NCBI GenBank assembly: GCA_020793555.1
Contig: DQIO01000313.1
Location: 1 to 19,057, forward strand
Length of the DNA: 19,057 nt
Source: Methanosarcinaceae archaeon
Lineage (GTDB): Archaea; Halobacteriota; Methanosarcinia; Methanosarcinales; Methanosarcinaceae
Reading direction: 5' to 3'
Every line of letters begins with the position of its first letter. Within the stretch, counting starts at the first letter, position 1. The notes under the pieces were generated by a model that was not told the DNA's origin, did not search any database, and worked only from the letters and a program-made list of their open reading frames with translations. Positions 3,154 through 16,462 of the stretch are shown one piece after another. Position numbers and translations under genes: made by a program.

Positions 3154-4071
3154 TTAATCAAACATTTTCAAAAAGTCCCCCATAGTTTTAGATTGCTTAT
3201 TGGGTGAATATACAGTAATTTCATCGAGTTCTATACGATTATATTTGTAGGCATTAAAATCATTTTTAGATATCCAGTATGATTGCCTTAGGTTTGAATC
3301 TACATTTTTTGGTGCATACGTCATGTATCCATATGGCTCATAATATTTAGAGGCAATTCGACTCATTTCAACAATATTTTTTGCGTATTCAACATCTGGA
3401 ATGTTAAATATGAATGTTTCTCTTTCTGCATATGTATATTTATCATTTAAATGTTCCATGCGAACTTCAATAGAATCTACATTGTATCCTGCATCATTCA
3501 ATTCACTTAACACAAGTTCTTTTTTTTCTTCTTCGGTTGGTTTTCTAGATTTCTCTCTAAGAGATTGGAAATAATCAATCTGTTTCATATCTGGACTCAT
3601 GATTCCAGTGTATCTTAAAGATGCCTGTGTAGTTTCGTCTGTTACTAGAAATACCATATTTGTCTTGAAACTACCGCCCTGTTTAACATCTACCGACTGG
3701 TGGTTGATTTCATCTGCATAGGTGGTAGTATCATGGTAATGTGTAACACTATTTGCTGTCATTTCCCAATTATAAGCATTCGTGGATACCGATCTACTAG
3801 CTTTGTTATTCAGGTATATACTTACAATAGCATATGTATATCCAGATGGAGCAGAGTAGTATCTTCCTATATTATTGGTTGTGTAGAAAGTCCAGTCCCA
3901 TTCGCATACATTTGTTTTTGGTTCCTCTGTGACATCTGTTTTTGGCTCTTCCGTGACATATGTTTTTGGTTTCTCTGTGACATCTGTTTTTGGCCCCGTA
4001 CATCCCACGGCAATTAGTGCCACGAGGACAATTACTATTACTACCAAATTTTTCACAATTTTATTTTTCAT
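3154..4071 (-). CDS. Lipoprotein with octapeptide repeats and a DUF4352-like domain
   Basis: The 305-residue protein starts at the ATG 4071, chosen because TGAGGA lies 8 nt upstream and a perfect lipoprotein signal follows: a hydrophobic segment at 6-20 and lipobox AVGC with Cys24. A short linker then carries tandem octapeptides (PKTDVTEK, PKTYVTEE, PKTDVTEE, PKTNV), likely a flexible spacer on the cell surface. Residues about 60-170 (YYSAPSGYTYAIVSIYLNNK...) resemble the immunoglobulin-like DUF4352 fold. The remaining C-terminal ~130 residues are a lysine- and tyrosine-rich region I do not recognise. It is 52 bp downstream of the lipoprotein at 4124-4822 and probably in the same operon. An extended frame to 4191 exists but adds a non-signal leader. 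Function unknown. Confidence 0.75.
   Translation of the reverse strand: MKNKIVKNLVVIVIVLVALIAVGCTGPKTDVTEKPKTYVTEEPKTDVTEEPKTNVCEWDWTFYTTNNIGRYYSAPSGYTYAIVSIYLNNKASRSVSTNAYNWEMTANSVTHYHDTTTYADEINHQSVDVKQGGSFKTNMVFLVTDETTQASLRYTGIMSPDMKQIDYFQSLREKSRKPTEEEKKELVLSELNDAGYNVDSIEVRMEHLNDKYTYAERETFIFNIPDVEYAKNIVEMSRIASKYYEPYGYMTYAPKNVDSNLRQSYWISKNDFNAYKYNRIELDEITVYSPNKQSKTMGDFLKMFD
3908..3994. repeat. 24-bp tandem repeat, about 3.6 units, inside the lipoprotein gene
   Basis: The unit 'acatctgtttttggctcttc' plus 'cgtg' is repeated with small changes. It encodes the octapeptide PKT(D/N/Y)VTE(E/K). The unit length is a multiple of three, so copy number can change without breaking the frame. Confidence 0.8.
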
Positions 4072-6850: not shown

Positions 6851-6889
6851 ATAGTTGCAACACGATTAGTATAATCATGTTGCAACAAT
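6851..6889 (+). promoter_or_regulatory. Palindrome spanning the ATPase promoter and start codon (copy 1)
   Basis: GTTGCAACACGATTA (6854-6868), spacer GTA, TAATCATGTTGCAAC (6872-6886): 15-bp arms with one mismatch. The right arm contains the ATG (6877) of the ATPase. 'ctatatag' at about 6848-6854 lies about 27 nt before that ATG, the normal TATA-to-start distance, so the mRNA is probably leaderless and the palindrome would cover the transcription start. An identical 39-bp stretch occurs at 10822-10860. Likely operator or terminal sequence; the binding protein is unknown. Confidence 0.65.
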
Positions 6890-8301
6890 TCATCAACCGC
6901 GAAGCAGAACTCGCTTTTTTAAACGAACGTTTATTAGAACATAAGCCCCAACTGCTTATTTTTTACGGTCGGCGCAGGGTTGGCAAGACTCATTTATTGG
7001 CAAAGTTCATGGAAAGCAAACCGCAAACGCCATCTATTTACTTCCTTGCAGGGAAAAAACGATGGAATGACAACATCAAAGAACTTCAATCAAAAATGGC
7101 TGAAATGGTTGATGAGCCATTGTTTTCAACCGCAGAATTCACCGATTATATTGAACTTTTCAGGGAATTTTCAAAAAGGTTCAAGGAACAAATTTTAATT
7201 GTCATTGATGAATTCCCATACCTCCATGATTCAAAAAGAGATATTGAATCAATGTTCCAGAAGATATATGATGAGATCATATCAGAATCTGAAATAACTC
7301 TGATACTGTGCGGTTCAAGTGTCTCAATGATGGAATCACTGCTCGGATACAAGAGTCCGCTCTATGGCAGGCGTACCGGGCAGTGGTTGGTTGAACCGCT
7401 TCGCTTCAGGGATGTCTGCAAGTTTTTCCCAAAATACGACATACAGGGCTGTATTGAGACGTATGCTGTACTCGGGGGGATACCATTCTATCTTTCTATG
7501 TTCAATGACCGTAATAGTGTTTTGAAGAATATAGAAAACATGCTGCTCAGTAAAGGTTCGGTATTGCAAAGGGAACCCGAATTCTTATTGATGGAACAAG
7601 TGCGAGAGCCAAGGAACTATTTTCTCATATTGAAGGCAATCGCATTTGGAAATACAAGATCATCTGAGATAATTAGCACAACCGGACTCGATAAGTCTGT
7701 AGTTTCAAGGTACATAGATGTCTTGCATAATCTCAGGATCGTTAAAAGATCCACGCCGGTCACAATCAAAAAAGAAAATGTGCGGGATATTCGATATTAT
7801 CTGGAAGATAACCTGTTTAATTTTTGGTTTAAATTCATCTATCCAAACGAAGCACAGATAGAATATGGCAATACAGATGCCCTGATCCAGACCATAAAGT
7901 CACAATTGGATGTCCATACGAGTTTTGTTTTTGAAGACATTTCGCGAGAATTCCTGTACGAGATCATGGATGATCTGCCATTTAGGTTTGAGAGAATTGG
8001 CAAGTGGTGGCACAAGGACAATGAGATCGACCTTGTGGCATTCAACGAAGGATCAAGAGATATCATGTTTGTTGAATGCAAATGGAAAAACAGGAAGATA
8101 GGTGTGGATGTTATTGAAAAATTGATCAATAAAGTAAAATATGTTGATTGGAAAAACAACGACCGACATGAATATTTCTGTATAATCTCAAAGAATGGAT
8201 TAACAAAAAATGCAAAGCAGTTTGCAAAAGAAAATGGCGTTTTAAGTTTTGATATGCAGGATATGAAGAAAGTCTTTAGTGTTGATGATAGTGAAGTTTA
8301 G
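6877..8301 (+). CDS. Archaeal-family AAA ATPase with DUF234-like C-terminal domain
   Basis: The 474-residue protein has an N-terminal P-loop ATPase of the archaeal ATPase family: Walker A GRRRVGKT at 31-38, Walker B ILIVIDEF at 106-113, sensor-like LILCGSS at 142-148, and the family motif SPLYGRRTGQW at 160-170. A winged-helix segment follows at about 250-290. The C-terminal DUF234 region has a PD-(D/E)xK-like pattern (NEIDLVAFNE at 382-391; FVECKWK at 398-404). These lineage-expanded STAND-like ATPases have no established function; DNA or nuclease roles are inferred. The ATG at 6877 lies inside a palindrome, and the message appears leaderless. A decayed, internally deleted second copy is at 9018-9154, and another copy of the start palindrome lies at 10822. 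Length and domains are complete, so this copy is probably functional. Confidence 0.88.
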   Translation: MLQQFINREAELAFLNERLLEHKPQLLIFYGRRRVGKTHLLAKFMESKPQTPSIYFLAGKKRWNDNIKELQSKMAEMVDEPLFSTAEFTDYIELFREFSKRFKEQILIVIDEFPYLHDSKRDIESMFQKIYDEIISESEITLILCGSSVSMMESLLGYKSPLYGRRTGQWLVEPLRFRDVCKFFPKYDIQGCIETYAVLGGIPFYLSMFNDRNSVLKNIENMLLSKGSVLQREPEFLLMEQVREPRNYFLILKAIAFGNTRSSEIISTTGLDKSVVSRYIDVLHNLRIVKRSTPVTIKKENVRDIRYYLEDNLFNFWFKFIYPNEAQIEYGNTDALIQTIKSQLDVHTSFVFEDISREFLYEIMDDLPFRFERIGKWWHKDNEIDLVAFNEGSRDIMFVECKWKNRKIGVDVIEKLINKVKYVDWKNNDRHEYFCIISKNGLTKNAKQFAKENGVLSFDMQDMKKVFSVDDSEV

Positions 8302-8447: not shown

Positions 8448-8972
8448 ATGATTAACATCGGTTTATTTTATCGACAGCTAGAAGCGATGGTCTATTTAAA
8501 ATCAATACTTTTGTTTATGGTTGCCGTCTTTGTTATTGGGACGATCGGCCGGCTGGTTAATAAATATTTAAGCACTACAAATTTACCTAAAGATGTACAG
8601 AACATCTTGAGGAGATGCATCGTGTATGTATTATGGTACATTGTTTTAATATATATTATTGAGTTACTGGATATAAAAGAAATTTTACTACCCCTCCTAG
8701 GCACTTCAATTTTGATTGGTGCTGCCGTTGCCCTGGCCATCAAAGACACCTTATCCGATGCAGTGGCAGGTTTGTTCCTTCTATTTGATAAACACTTTAA
8801 TATTGGTGACCAAATCGAGACGATGAAGTATAAAGGTGAGATCATCAATGTCACACTCAGAAAAACACGTATAATTACAAGCGACGGAACAATAGTTGTG
8901 TTACCAAATAGAAAAATTGATTCGTCCGGATGGCAGTTGTATAAAAAAACAGATCAGATGGATAAAAAATGA
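8448..8972 (+). CDS. Minimal MscS-type mechanosensitive channel
   Basis: A 174-residue membrane protein. Predicted membrane segments are at about 17-37, 56-76 and 78-113. The last carries the glycine/alanine pore helix LLGTSILIGAAVALAIKDTLSDAVAGLFLLFD characteristic of MscS TM3. It is followed by the beta-domain signature FNIGDQIE and YKGEIINVTLRKTRIITSDG and VVLPNRKI. The large C-terminal alpha/beta domain of E. coli MscS (286 aa) is missing and the protein ends about 17 residues after the PNRKI motif. Short forms like this occur in methanogens, so it may be complete rather than truncated. Start uncertain: ATG 8448 has only a weak ribosome site, and ATG 8487 (residue 14) is an alternative. 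A TATA-like 'ttatata' lies at 8373-8380. Role: release of solutes on hypo-osmotic shock. Confidence 0.8.
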   Translation: MINIGLFYRQLEAMVYLKSILLFMVAVFVIGTIGRLVNKYLSTTNLPKDVQNILRRCIVYVLWYIVLIYIIELLDIKEILLPLLGTSILIGAAVALAIKDTLSDAVAGLFLLFDKHFNIGDQIETMKYKGEIINVTLRKTRIITSDGTIVVLPNRKIDSSGWQLYKKTDQMDKK

Positions 8973-9017
8973 AACTATATATGCCGAATTTTGATTAAGC
9001 ATAGTGTGCTTGATCCA

Positions 9018-9154
9018 TTGACAATGGCGGAGTTCATGAAAAGTAAACCGCAATCGCTATCGATTTACGTCCTTGCAGGGAAAAACGATGTAAAAACAGC
9101 AATCGGCATGAATATTTCTGCATTATTTCAAAGAATGGATTAACAAAAAATGCA
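9018..9154 (+). pseudogene. Internally deleted remnant of an archaeal ATPase gene
   Basis: Bases 9024-9090 match the ATPase gene at about 6995-7065 (agttcatgaaaagtaaaccg... cttgcagggaaaaacgatg), encoding FMxSKPQ...YFLAGK. Bases 9095-9154 then match 8160-8215 (catgaatatttctg... aagaatggattaacaaaaaa), encoding HEYF...SKNGLTKNA. About 1.1 kb of the gene between these blocks is missing and the joint falls in an A-rich stretch. Both blocks carry many substitutions, so this is a diverged paralogue that decayed, not a recent copy. Confidence 0.8.
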
Positions 9155-9310
9155 GTGTTAACGACGATCAAGAATCCCCTCTATAAGAACATATATCCGT
9201 TTGGTGACGCCCGTGCTAATGTTTCTTTGAATCTCAGTGTCAATGTTGACTACACCACATTGTCAGCAACATTTAATGATGCAATGAACACGATCTCAAG
9301 GTATACGTGA
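9155..9310 (+). pseudogene. C-terminal fragment of a probable exported protein
   Basis: Fifty-one codons, ending at TGA 9308-9310, read VLTTIKNPLYKNIYPFGDAR then ANVSLNLSVNVDYTTLSATF and NDAMNTISRYT. The alternating beta-type pattern and two N-glycosylation sequons suggest the end of an extracellular or S-layer-associated protein. The fragment begins exactly where the ATPase remnant ends, in frame with it, and has no start or ribosome site of its own. Family not recognised. Confidence 0.4.
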
Positions 9311-9550: not shown

Positions 9551-9973
9551 CTATGTAGAGCACTTAAAATTCACATCGATTCCCAAAATATCCTCTGCGC
9601 CGCCTGCGACATCACACGCGATCTCCGCGCACCCAATAGCTGCACTCCATTTCCCAAGCATATGACAATTGACGCCAAGGTGGGCATTGACCTTATCCAC
9701 CACATAATCAACTTCCCCGACCGAACCTGCAAGGAATATCTCCCCATCACAACCATAGTCTTTGAGCAATACTTCAATACTCGCAATCTCCATTGCAGCG
9801 AACAGGGCGATAGTATCAAGCGCAAGCAGTGCACTTTCTTCACCTCTTGCCGCGCCTTCAAGAAGTTTTTCCCTGCCTGCATACGAGGTGTGCTTCAAAA
9901 CCCCTGCATGTATGAAAGCCTCGTTAGCAGTACAAGTCCCTGCATCAACATCCCGAATAGCCTGCAGGTCAAG
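9551..9973 (-). pseudogene. Methanogenesis marker protein 12, C-terminal fragment
   Basis: The minus-strand frame is open from 9973 to the TGA at 9551, giving 140 residues: LDLQAIRDVDAGTCTANEAF ... GREKLLEGAARGEESALLAL ... DGEIFLAGSVGEVDYV ... LGKWSAAIGCAEIA ... ILGIDVNFKCST. This is the C-terminal portion of the ASKHA-fold 'methanogenesis marker 12' family, encoded almost only in methanogens and ANME archaea. The family is about 320 residues, so over half is missing. An in-frame TAG (9974-9976) directly precedes the fragment and the TauE gene's stop lies at 9980, so the break falls between the two. An internal ATG at 9898 could start only 115 residues. Broken gene; an intact copy is expected elsewhere. 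Confidence 0.75.
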
Positions 9974-13458: not shown

Positions 13459-13472
13459 CGCCGCATGCGGCG
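13459..13472. repeat. GC-rich perfect palindrome (hairpin family member 1)
   Basis: CGCCGCATGCGGCG stands out in an AT-rich spacer, 80 bp after raSEA. Similar hairpins occur at 13721 and 15509. It could be a transcript 3' structure or a dispersed REP-like repeat. Confidence 0.5.
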
Positions 13473-13552
13473 TCGGCACATATCATTTTATTAATTATGA
13501 GGGTCGGTTTTTGAATAACTATTTCGTGGCTCTGCGAGCGGATTTGCAATAA

Positions 13553-13634
13553 TCCATAGTATACTATGGATAAACAGCCAATTATCCATGGTATAATGGG
13601 GATAAATACCCAAATATCCATACTATACTATGGA
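13553..13634. repeat. Array of three 18-bp palindromes at exact 32-bp spacing
   Basis: Site 1 (13553-13570) TCCATAGTATACTATGGA is a perfect palindrome. Site 2 (13585-13602) TCCATGGTATAATGGGGA differs at four bases. Site 3 (13617-13634) TCCATACTATACTATGGA differs at one. Starts are 32 bp apart both times. The linkers after sites 1 and 2 are alike (TAAACAGCCAATTA, TAAATACCCAAATA), so the unit is a 32-bp direct repeat with an internal palindrome. The spacing is about three helical turns, suggesting one protein bound repeatedly to the same DNA face. No gene starts close downstream. Confidence 0.8.
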
Positions 13635-13720
13635 CAATGAAATTTTAGTGATATTTGTATAGATGTGGTTGGATGGCTGCGTAAATGTGATTGTTCTATT
13701 TGAAATTAAAAACAATGCGA

Positions 13721-13734
13721 CCGCCGTCAGGCGG
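13721..13734. repeat. GC-rich hairpin (family member 2)
   Basis: CCGCC-GTCA-GGCGG with a four-base loop. Like members 1 and 3 it is followed within ~20 bp by a 'actaa(a)tt' AT-rich stretch. Confidence 0.45.
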
Positions 13735-13980
13735 CATGTCCCATACATACTAAATTGAATAATCCAAATTGTTAGCAAAAAGTGTATGAGAAAAATCTCT
13801 CTTCGGTTAATTTAACTCGAACTATATGCTTATGAAACATATACCATTAAAAATTGTGGAATATGCTCTGAAGCGATTGAAAATTCGATGTGTATGTAGG
13901 GCAACGCCACGTTATGCGCGGGTGGTCGAATCATTTTTATCATGAACTAATTAAACACTCTGCGCCACGACGTTGCACTA

Positions 13981-14000
13981 ACTAAACAAAAATGTTTAGT
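13981..14000 (-). terminator. Hairpin after purB
   Basis: ACTAAACA-AAAA-TGTTTAGT forms an 8-bp perfect stem 12-31 nt downstream of the purB stop codon. It could end the purB transcript or protect its 3' end. There is no long T-run immediately after it on the minus strand apart from the loop. Confidence 0.4.
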
Positions 14001-14011
14001 CTATTGAAATT

Positions 14012-15307
14012 TTATTTCTTCTGCAACTTCGCCACAACAGCCTCTACCTGTTCGACTGCTGTCCCAATATACTTGTCAGGGTCTACAAGATTTACAATAT
14101 CATCTTTGTTCAGGTATTTTGTAACCTCCTTGTTGGCAAGCAAAACATCTTTGAAGTGTTGTCCACCCTCGTGTGCTATCATTGCACTGCTTCGCACAAT
14201 CTCATGTGCTTCCTGCCTGCCAACCCCGCGCATTGCGAGTTCGATCATCACGGCTTCACCCATGTTGAGCCCGCGCAAAAGATCAAGGTTGCTGCGTATG
14301 TTTTCGGGATAGAAACGCAGGTTTTCAATAACACCAATTGCAAGTTTGATTATGTGGTCTGTGAGGACGCATGCTTCAGGGAATACGATCCTTTCGCATG
14401 ATGAGTTGGTGAGGTCACGTTCATCCCAGAGTGTGTTGTTCATCAGTTCCGGCTCGATCATGGCACGCACGATGCGGGCTAGTCCGCATATCTGCTCGGA
14501 CTTGATCGGGTTTCGTTTGTGTGGCATTGTGGATGAACCAACCTGTTTTTTGCCAAAACTCTCTTCAACCTCTGCAATTTCGCTTCTCTGGAGTGATCGG
14601 AATTCGACAGCGATTTTGTCCAGTGTGGTTACGGTGTTTGCCATCCACATGACGAATTCGGCATGACGGTCACGCTGGATGATCTGGTTTGAGACATCCA
14701 CCGCGCCAATTTTGAGATATTCCATTGTACGTTTCTGGATCTCGATCCCGTCTTTGCCAAAGGCAGCCTGTGTGCCTACTGCACCTGTCATTTGACCGAC
14801 AGTGGCGCGGGGTTTGAGTTGTTCAAGCCGCTCGATATGACGTGCAACTTCGGATGCCCAGATGGCAAACCGCAGTCCGTATGTTGTCGGGACACCGATC
14901 TGACCGTGTGTGCGTCCGGCACATACCAGATTCTTGTTGTCGCTTGCCTGTTTGACAAGCACTGCCAGAAGTTGGTCCATTTTCTTTTCAAGTATCTCGA
15001 TAGCGTCCTTGATCTGAAGTCCTGTTGAAGTGTCAAGAATATCGTTGGAGGTCGCACCAAAGTGCACCCACTTACCTGCTTCTTCGGTGCACTGCTCGGT
15101 AATTCCAATGACCACAGCCATCATGTCATGGTCAATTTCATCCTCGATCGCTTTTACACGTTCAAGTTGTACGGATTGAATGCTTTTTGCGATATTCTCA
15201 GCTGCATCTTTTGGGATAAGCCCGATGTCAGCCTCTGCCATTGCAAGGGCAGCTTCGGTCTCCATGAGTTTGTCAAGGCGGTTTGCCTCACTCCAAACGT
15301 ATTTCAT
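14012..15307 (-). CDS. purB: Adenylosuccinate lyase, body of gene downstream of a nonsense codon
   Basis: PurB splits SAICAR to AICAR and adenylosuccinate to AMP, both with release of fumarate. The 431 residues from ATG 15307 (MKYVWSEANR) contain all later family motifs: EIDHDMM at 57-63, GRTHGQIGVPTTYG at 131-144, and the fumarase/ASL signature GSSTMPHKRNPIKSE at 257-271, with a normal C-terminus. The natural start is clearly upstream at ATG 15349 (MAIHPIEYR, then GTDE and MKYVW), giving 446 residues, but codon 10, where the family has the Tyr of the conserved Arg-Tyr pair, is TAA. As written, only re-initiation at 15307 (no ribosome site seen) could make the 431-residue form, which lacks the substrate-binding Arg-Tyr. 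Alternatives are readthrough, a sequencing error, or a pseudogene. A hairpin follows the stop. Confidence 0.88.
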   Translation of the reverse strand: MKYVWSEANRLDKLMETEAALAMAEADIGLIPKDAAENIAKSIQSVQLERVKAIEDEIDHDMMAVVIGITEQCTEEAGKWVHFGATSNDILDTSTGLQIKDAIEILEKKMDQLLAVLVKQASDNKNLVCAGRTHGQIGVPTTYGLRFAIWASEVARHIERLEQLKPRATVGQMTGAVGTQAAFGKDGIEIQKRTMEYLKIGAVDVSNQIIQRDRHAEFVMWMANTVTTLDKIAVEFRSLQRSEIAEVEESFGKKQVGSSTMPHKRNPIKSEQICGLARIVRAMIEPELMNNTLWDERDLTNSSCERIVFPEACVLTDHIIKLAIGVIENLRFYPENIRSNLDLLRGLNMGEAVMIELAMRGVGRQEAHEIVRSSAMIAHEGGQHFKDVLLANKEVTKYLNKDDIVNLVDPDKYIGTAVEQVEAVVAKLQKK

Positions 15308-15319
15308 TTCGTCTGTACC

Positions 15320-15349
15320 TTAGCGGTATTCTATTGGGTGAATTGCCAT
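15320..15349 (-). other. purB: Native purB N-terminus ending in an in-frame TAA
   Basis: ATG 15349-15347 with GGAG about 10 nt upstream begins MAIHPIEYR, then TAA (15322-15320), then GGT-ACA-GAC-GAA-ATG in the same frame into the purB body. The homologous archaeal start is 'IEYRYGT-x-EM', so a TAT or TAC codon has apparently become TAA by one substitution. Confidence 0.8.
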
Positions 15350-15682
15350 ATTTTTGAATCTCCATTGTGGATAATTTGTGTTATTTGAATTGGTGTGGAT
15401 TACTCTTGTAAGTAATAAATAGGCTTTGAATCGAATGGAGAATTGTCTTACAAATTTGGTCGTCGGTGTTATGTGAATCAAGTTGATATACTTTGGTAAA
15501 AGCATCAACACGTCGCAAGCGGCGTGTTCCTCCGTTACTAATTAATTGTAACTACAAATCAAAAATGATGTCACATTGTTAAAAATGCATCATGGGGCAT
15601 GCCAAAGATAATTAAAACACATCTGTCTGACTATGTGAGGGGGATAGTTTATACTTAAACTAAAATGGGGGGAGAAGATGTT
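15350..15682. other. Intergenic region upstream of purB
   Basis: It holds the purB leader and presumably its promoter (minus-strand 'ctatttattac', about 15412-15422, is the best TATA-like candidate) and the GC-rich hairpin at 15509. A minus-strand frame at 15511-15320 is only the extension of the purB frame upstream of its start. Nothing else is supported. Confidence 0.35.
15509..15526. repeat. GC-rich hairpin (family member 3)
   Basis: CACGTCGC-AA-GCGGCGTG, 8-bp arms with one mismatch, followed by 'ttactaattaattg'. It resembles the hairpins at 13459 and 13721 in composition and in the AT-rich sequence that follows. Confidence 0.45.
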
Positions 15683-16462
15683 TTAATCTTTCAAATTATG
15701 AATTTCAAACCCTAATGTTACTATAATAAAGAACCACCCAGCACAAATAAGGGAAAATATCAAGTATCTCCATTTTATCATAATATCATAATCTAAAAGC
15801 ATCATAAAAAGTGGCAAAAAAATACCGACAAGTGAAAAAATAGACAAATTTATCAGATGTTTTTTTGAGTCAAGAACATCTTTATTGGACGATAATTGTT
15901 CCTCTTTGTATTTTAAAACGTTATCTAAAAAAAGTACTTCCCCTTTTTTAGTACTGATATCATTTTCATATTCTCGATATTTAGTCAATTTTAAACTAAG
16001 TTGAGTGCCTCCTTCCCCTTTTTCTAATTGATATAACATATAACTGCTTGGAATATTAGATGGATTGAAAGTGTTATCTAGGCTTTTACAAAGTTCAATT
16101 TCTCTATCACTTAGCAGTTCTTTTGTTCGAAGATAGATTTGATCAGTTTCTTCAACGAGATATGTATATTTTTTATTAATCTCATCAATTTCATTTTTGA
16201 GTTGTTTGAGGTACAATTTTTGATTTAAGACTTTAGTTGTTAGGAATGCGCCCATTAAACCGACTATTGCAGCAGCACTTTGTGCAGATGCACTATAAAA
16301 CCAATTTGGATCAATTTGGGATGCTATAAAAGTTGTATTGCTAGCGTTTAGAAAAGAGCTAGATGAATAATCAATAAAACTAGAAGTATAGTTTGTTATA
16401 TTTGTAACGTTGGTTGAATTAGAATTATTGTTCAATAAAACTTCTTGAATATTTCCATTCAT
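15683..16462 (-). CDS. Three-TM coiled-coil membrane protein, unknown function
   Basis: A 259-residue protein. Residues 1-50 are Asn/Ser/Thr-rich with six N-glycosylation sequons (for example N18VT, N21IT, N24YT, N42TT), pointing to an outside-facing, possibly glycosylated N-terminus. A first membrane segment at about 56-77 (SASAQSAAAIVGLMGAFLTT) is followed by a long charged coiled coil at about 80-125, a helical region to 200, and two further membrane segments at 205-224 and 231-251. The coiled-coil part would then lie in the cytoplasm. There is no Shine-Dalgarno sequence before the ATG, and a TATA-like 'ttttaaaaac' about 28 nt upstream suggests a leaderless message. The family is not recognised; a sensor or signalling role is only a guess. 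Confidence 0.65.
   Translation of the reverse strand: MNGNIQEVLLNNNSNSTNVTNITNYTSSFIDYSSSSFLNASNTTFIASQIDPNWFYSASAQSAAAIVGLMGAFLTTKVLNQKLYLKQLKNEIDEINKKYTYLVEETDQIYLRTKELLSDREIELCKSLDNTFNPSNIPSSYMLYQLEKGEGGTQLSLKLTKYREYENDISTKKGEVLFLDNVLKYKEEQLSSNKDVLDSKKHLINLSIFSLVGIFLPLFMMLLDYDIMIKWRYLIFSLICAGWFFIIVTLGFEIHNLKD

Follow-up and report, generated by a model that had tools for sequence, protein, structure and literature searches.

An in-frame TAA at codon 10 of an otherwise intact purB gene in a draft archaeal metagenome bin

The purB locus and its relatives

The window analyzed here (the whole 19,057-nt stretch of DNA) carries on its minus strand an adenylosuccinate lyase gene, purB, whose frame reads MAIHPIEYR from the ATG at 15349, meets a TAA at 15322-15320, and continues with GTDEMKYVW, open down to the stop at 14012. 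This TAA is the sole interruption of the frame (Table 1), and the gene, frame, start, and coordinates given in the original prediction proved correct. Both Pfam domains expected of a PurB, Lyase_1 and ADSL_C, are present on the 431-aa frame downstream of the TAA, and the N-terminal Arg-Tyr pair of the enzyme is broken up, with Arg9 preceding the stop and Tyr10 replaced by it. The pair had been described as removed, which holds for the Tyr but not for the Arg; both would be lost only from a product started at the internal ATG (15307), which is preceded by nothing stronger than a weak AAGGT, as judged by eye. Scans of the region 13800-15700 returned four sigma-70-type promoter sites (3.6 in shuffled sequences) and two terminator sites (1.9 in shuffles), that is, about the number found by shuffling. 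The gene lies mid-contig, and there is no N anywhere in the window.

Table 1. Features of the purB locus, with positions in the window
Feature	Coordinates	Strand	Basis or remark
purB (adenylosuccinate lyase), full conserved frame with a single interruption	14012..15349	-	Frame reading, relatives, Pfam
In-frame TAA, codon 10	15320..15322	-	TAC or TAT in all 29 relatives read at base level
Native start ATG	15347..15349	-	ATG in 24/29 and GTG in 5/29 relatives inspected
GGAG, Shine-Dalgarno-like motif	15360..15363	-	10 nt upstream of the native ATG; read from the sequence
Internal ATG, codon 15	15305..15307	-	12 nt past the TAA; possible re-initiation start, 431-aa product
431-aa open frame 3' of the TAA	14012..15307	-	Sequence reading

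A search for PurB over 60 genomes, that of the window included, gave some match in 58, strong in 55 (counting the own genome and one partial match, G034) and limited to a weak superfamily match in the other three. From the 54 relatives with a strong match, 29 loci (L003-L031) were read at base level. All 29 have TAC or TAT where the window has its TAA, and keep an open frame before it with Arg9-Tyr10 present; the long start is therefore the native one, and it is the sequence studied here that departs from its relatives. A mis-chosen start is thereby ruled out. The Tyr that had been expected after the Arg in homologues was also found at column 10 in 119 of the 120 best proteins listed (the best 120 of 8,000 scored). 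Homologues whose frame begins at MKYVW, for which the original prediction had allowed, were absent from the 29 loci, and the sole exception among the 120 proteins was P0031, which begins at the internal Met. This 430-aa protein, 86% identical to the query, comes from a 2,071-base contig and is annotated from that same Met, which may reflect gene calling or the edge of the contig. Five PurB sequences of the same genus have 91 to 96% identity to the one in the window, their first 14 residues being alike apart from the stop; L035 (ANME3 from HMMV), with 92% identity, is among the closest loci. The TAA is, therefore, a true departure of the assembled sequence from those of its relatives.

The remainder of the gene was predicted to be intact, and this is what we observed. 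Its dN/dS values against the five same-genus genes (0.048 to 0.106) overlap with those among the five (0.046 to 0.091), and no indels separate them. Loosened constraint, frameshifts, or multiple stops would mark a decayed pseudogene, and none of these is seen here, the gene having one stop and no indel. Residues 10, 73, 353, and 411 are unlike all five same-genus sequences, differing only here, and those at 58, 353, and 410 are rare among the 120 listed proteins (at most one each); against the 22 closest listed relatives, only position 10 is unmatched. Given the ordinary dN/dS and the intact remainder, any inactivation would have to be very recent. Stops would be created by 146 of the 4,005 possible single-base changes in the purB of a relative (L033), so a single nonsense change needs nothing special. 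If errors occurred at 1e-5 per base, an assumed rate, a 2.56-Mb bin would by our arithmetic contain about 0.7 to 0.9 false nonsense codons.

The contribution of the Arg-Tyr pair to substrate binding, as originally proposed, agrees with the description of Staphylococcus aureus PurB, where Arg4 and Tyr5 are among the residues that bind the AMP phosphate (PMC2917274). These two residues pair in phmmer with R9-Y10 of the close relative P0001, and the Arg-Tyr was kept in the five alignments shown. A PurB made from 15307 would, by analogy, be missing both phosphate ligands, and its activity is expected to be low. The active site of the enzyme is shared between subunits, which puts it beyond what a model of the monomer could show. 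An archaeal survey gives exactly one purB per purine-making species and cites the PurB of Methanocaldococcus jannaschii as serving methanopterin synthesis too (PMC3261824), so loss of the gene should be costly for a methane oxidizer. In the 93%-complete bin we found no second purB that could back up an inactivation, the other match being a superfamily lyase with 26% identity. Additional partial PurB pieces were seen besides the full copy in two relatives of another family, two in G056 (C109:219-899 and C7:45567-46055) and one in G044 (C183:1802-2284), the latter with a TAA inside the match.

Stop codons, tRNAs, and assembly quality across the bin

A first comparison of stretches of the bin (G000) with contigs of its relatives found almost no shared genes. 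As a forward control, the ORFs of one same-genus contig (G001:C32) and of most of another (G005:C33), in 11 stretches, were used as queries, with DNA searches for the matching places in G000 for five of the 11. Rows were kept if the query had 120 aa or more and was covered over at least 60% with an identity of >65%. The 69 rows that passed correspond to 68 distinct places and 24,134 codons (purB counted twice). Seven were flagged for a stop, two of them being purB; in the other five the stop precedes the probable real start, as judged by eye, with L202 as the least certain case, given that the residues ahead of its presumed start are conserved too. Of the 68 genes, purB is the sole one whose conserved frame is interrupted by a stop, and none showed a frameshift.

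The reverse control, non-overlapping ORFs of G000 against the stretches of the relatives, covered 75 genes and 26,026 codons and flagged six rows. Two belong to a single gene of G005 (L147, G005:C33) with an internal in-frame stop, which we take to be a transposase and which is open in the related G000 copies. One row, a 148-aa ORF, may hold a frameshift; in two others the stop precedes the likely start; and one (180 aa, three stops) resembles a shadow ORF. Thus, the relatives too show an occasional broken gene.

The end was seen for 59 of the compared G000 genes, and 26 of these terminate with TAA. The relatives have Tyr at 738 compared sites (purB counted twice); the corresponding codon in the bin is TAT or TAC in 687 cases and TAA in three, two of them being purB. 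The third, judging from the alignment, would lie upstream of the real start of another gene. A reassigned TAA would recur at conserved sense positions and not serve to terminate genes; here the codon is a common terminator and no other genuine internal TAA occurs in the 68 genes. None of the tRNAs resolved from 28 Rfam matches, introns allowed, has a TTA anticodon, in a tRNA set that is incomplete for the bin and in which the ARAGORN names of intron-bearing tRNAs are uncertain; a Tyr(GTA) tRNA was predicted. With TAA an ordinary stop, no TTA anticodon seen in this incomplete tRNA set, and purB an isolated case, a changed code or a suppressor tRNA found no support, and neither did the UAA readthrough listed among the original options.

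The bin consists of 334 contigs with 2,557,143 bases and a completeness of 92.74. We infer that the window comes from ANME-3 sp. HMMV2, a draft bin from a methane-oxidizing archaeon that has not been cultured. HMMV2, listed also as Methanovorans sp. nov. 2 (DQIO01000000), is described with 334 scaffolds, 2.56 Mb, and a completeness of 94.4, and was obtained from the reads SRR1971624 with metaSPAdes 3.9.0, FinishM roundup for scaffolding and gap filling, and groopm2 binning; SRR1971621 and SRR1971623 also served in the binning of its sister genome (PMC9012536). Within the bin, the 7.9-kb locus L191 (G000:C272) has, in a gene from position 3414 on, 31 Ns, single or paired and several of them three bases apart, which look like merged or unresolved consensus, as from diverged copies that were joined. 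The same-genus stretch L148 has 10 Ns, so the presence of Ns does not by itself set this bin apart. Withheld sequence would read as N too, although scattered single Ns look unlike it. Bases 1 to 55 of the window recur in contig C102, the 56th base being different. Such a 55-base overlap is that of SPAdes with k=55.

Origin of the TAA at codon 10

We consider it probable that the TAA is a base-level artefact or a collapsed strain variant, and that in the living population codon 10 specifies Tyr and a normal PurB of 445 aa is produced. The base itself would be wrong, having entered through a sequencing or assembly error, as a gap-filling base, or along a minor or chimeric strain path. Sequencing error was one of four options in the original prediction and is the best supported of them. 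What favors an artefact is that one codon alone has become a stop, in a gene that is intact in the 29 relatives inspected, under purifying selection, and without a second copy in the bin, together with the imperfect consensus elsewhere in the bin and its origin as a metaSPAdes/FinishM draft, which the 55-base contig overlap fits. On the other side, a k-mer assembler usually needs several concordant reads, and a lone read error should not persist at good coverage, which is a point against an artefact. The lack of any other conserved-frame stop or frameshift in the 68 genes also counts against it, as the part of the bin that was sampled is not full of errors, and so do the mid-contig position of purB, the N-free window, and the presence of Ns in L148 as well.

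A genuine, very recent nonsense allele in all or part of the ANME-3 population is the main alternative, which we regard as less likely. Ribosomes would stop after nine residues, and some might restart at the ATG at 15307 to make a 431-aa PurB without Arg9-Tyr10, inactive or weak; carriers would live on this leaky activity or be a minority under removal by selection. The base does stand in the deposited assembly, the remainder of the gene keeps both lyase domains and shows no decay, as a very young allele would, and a bin, being a population sample, could catch a minority allele. Recent inactivation had been proposed together with a second purB, and its recency fits the dN/dS values, but no second gene was found in the bin. 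The re-initiation that had also been proposed is physically plausible, since in Haloferax volcanii stop-to-start gaps of 13 to 14 nt, near the 12 nt here, are reported to give 40 to 60% re-initiation in three gene pairs; however, the same source states that coupling normally needs overlaps and that a gap of about 20 nt nearly abolishes it (PMC10666635), and the internal ATG has only its weak AAGGT. The shortened product would also be without the residues that align with the phosphate-binding Arg4-Tyr5 of S. aureus PurB (PMC2917274), the Tyr being the one kept in all but one of the 120 best listed relatives, and the cell needs PurB to make purines and probably methanopterin (PMC3261824).

It is very improbable that the TAA is real and fixed and that PurB simply works from 15307, the upstream residues being dispensable: P0031 starts at the same internal Met, but its start may come from gene calling or a contig edge, and the 29 relatives inspected retain Arg9-Tyr10 as substrate-phosphate ligands. 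We give just as little credence to a TAA fixed in the ANME-3 lineage where termination and re-initiation at codon 15 would yield an active PurB without the nearly universal Arg-Tyr phosphate clamp. This would resemble archaeal termination-reinitiation (translational coupling) in having a stop and then a start after 12 nt, near the H. volcanii gaps (PMC10666635), and would differ from it in acting inside one gene to give an N-terminally clipped enzyme; what the sequence shows of it is the 12-nt spacing. If the TAA were real and fixed, the need of PurB for its N-terminal phosphate ligands would come into doubt, and this in an archaeon presumed to depend on PurB to make purines and possibly methanopterin. 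Least probable of all is a real TAA read as an amino acid, by a suppressor tRNA, readthrough, or a changed code, to give full-length PurB. In its favor, reading register and sequence conservation extend to both sides of the stop, but TAA ends genes throughout the compared set, the Tyr sites of relatives are overwhelmingly TAT or TAC in the bin, and the resolved tRNAs, an incomplete set, include the predicted Tyr(GTA) tRNA and no TTA anticodon.

The most likely origin of the TAA is thus a flaw in the assembly or, failing that, a broken allele of very recent date, with no new kind of biology, and the finding is probably an ordinary one in which the departure belongs to the assembly and is no feature of the organism. 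The gene has the same domains as the Methanosarcinaceae PurB, of the aspartase/fumarase superfamily, and is unlike it in the one codon that is TAA in this assembly. It also resembles the lone false stops of draft metagenome-assembled genomes, in that one base is changed in a single-copy gene that is otherwise whole and the bin has Ns and gap filling. Our literature search found no paper joining Methanovorans with adenylosuccinate lyase and, with a narrow combination of terms, none on premature stops in metagenome bins. If an artefact, the TAA would be an example of a false stop that gene callers turn into a plausible shorter protein.

Other features of the window

At 108-1055 (together with 1-107) there is a Glu/Leu/Phe/Val dehydrogenase gene without its N-terminal part, the homology with the G001 gene starting at 108. 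Right after the stop of the TauE gene, 9551-9898 (minus strand) holds a conserved-looking C-terminal gene fragment with no Pfam match, presumably methanogenesis-marker-12-like. Pieces similar to the ATPase/DUF234 ORF at 6877-8301 appear at 8970-9170 (plus strand) in several frames and look by eye like a decayed second copy. Short repeats of about 55 to 80 bases (window positions 13788-13854 and 13467-13779) are found across dozens of G000 contigs, several of them on both strands; they also match stretches of G001 and G005 and resemble miniature mobile elements. The contig end, 18841-19056, has 78 to 87% identity to parts of G001 and G005 regions and is probably a repeat that broke the assembly.
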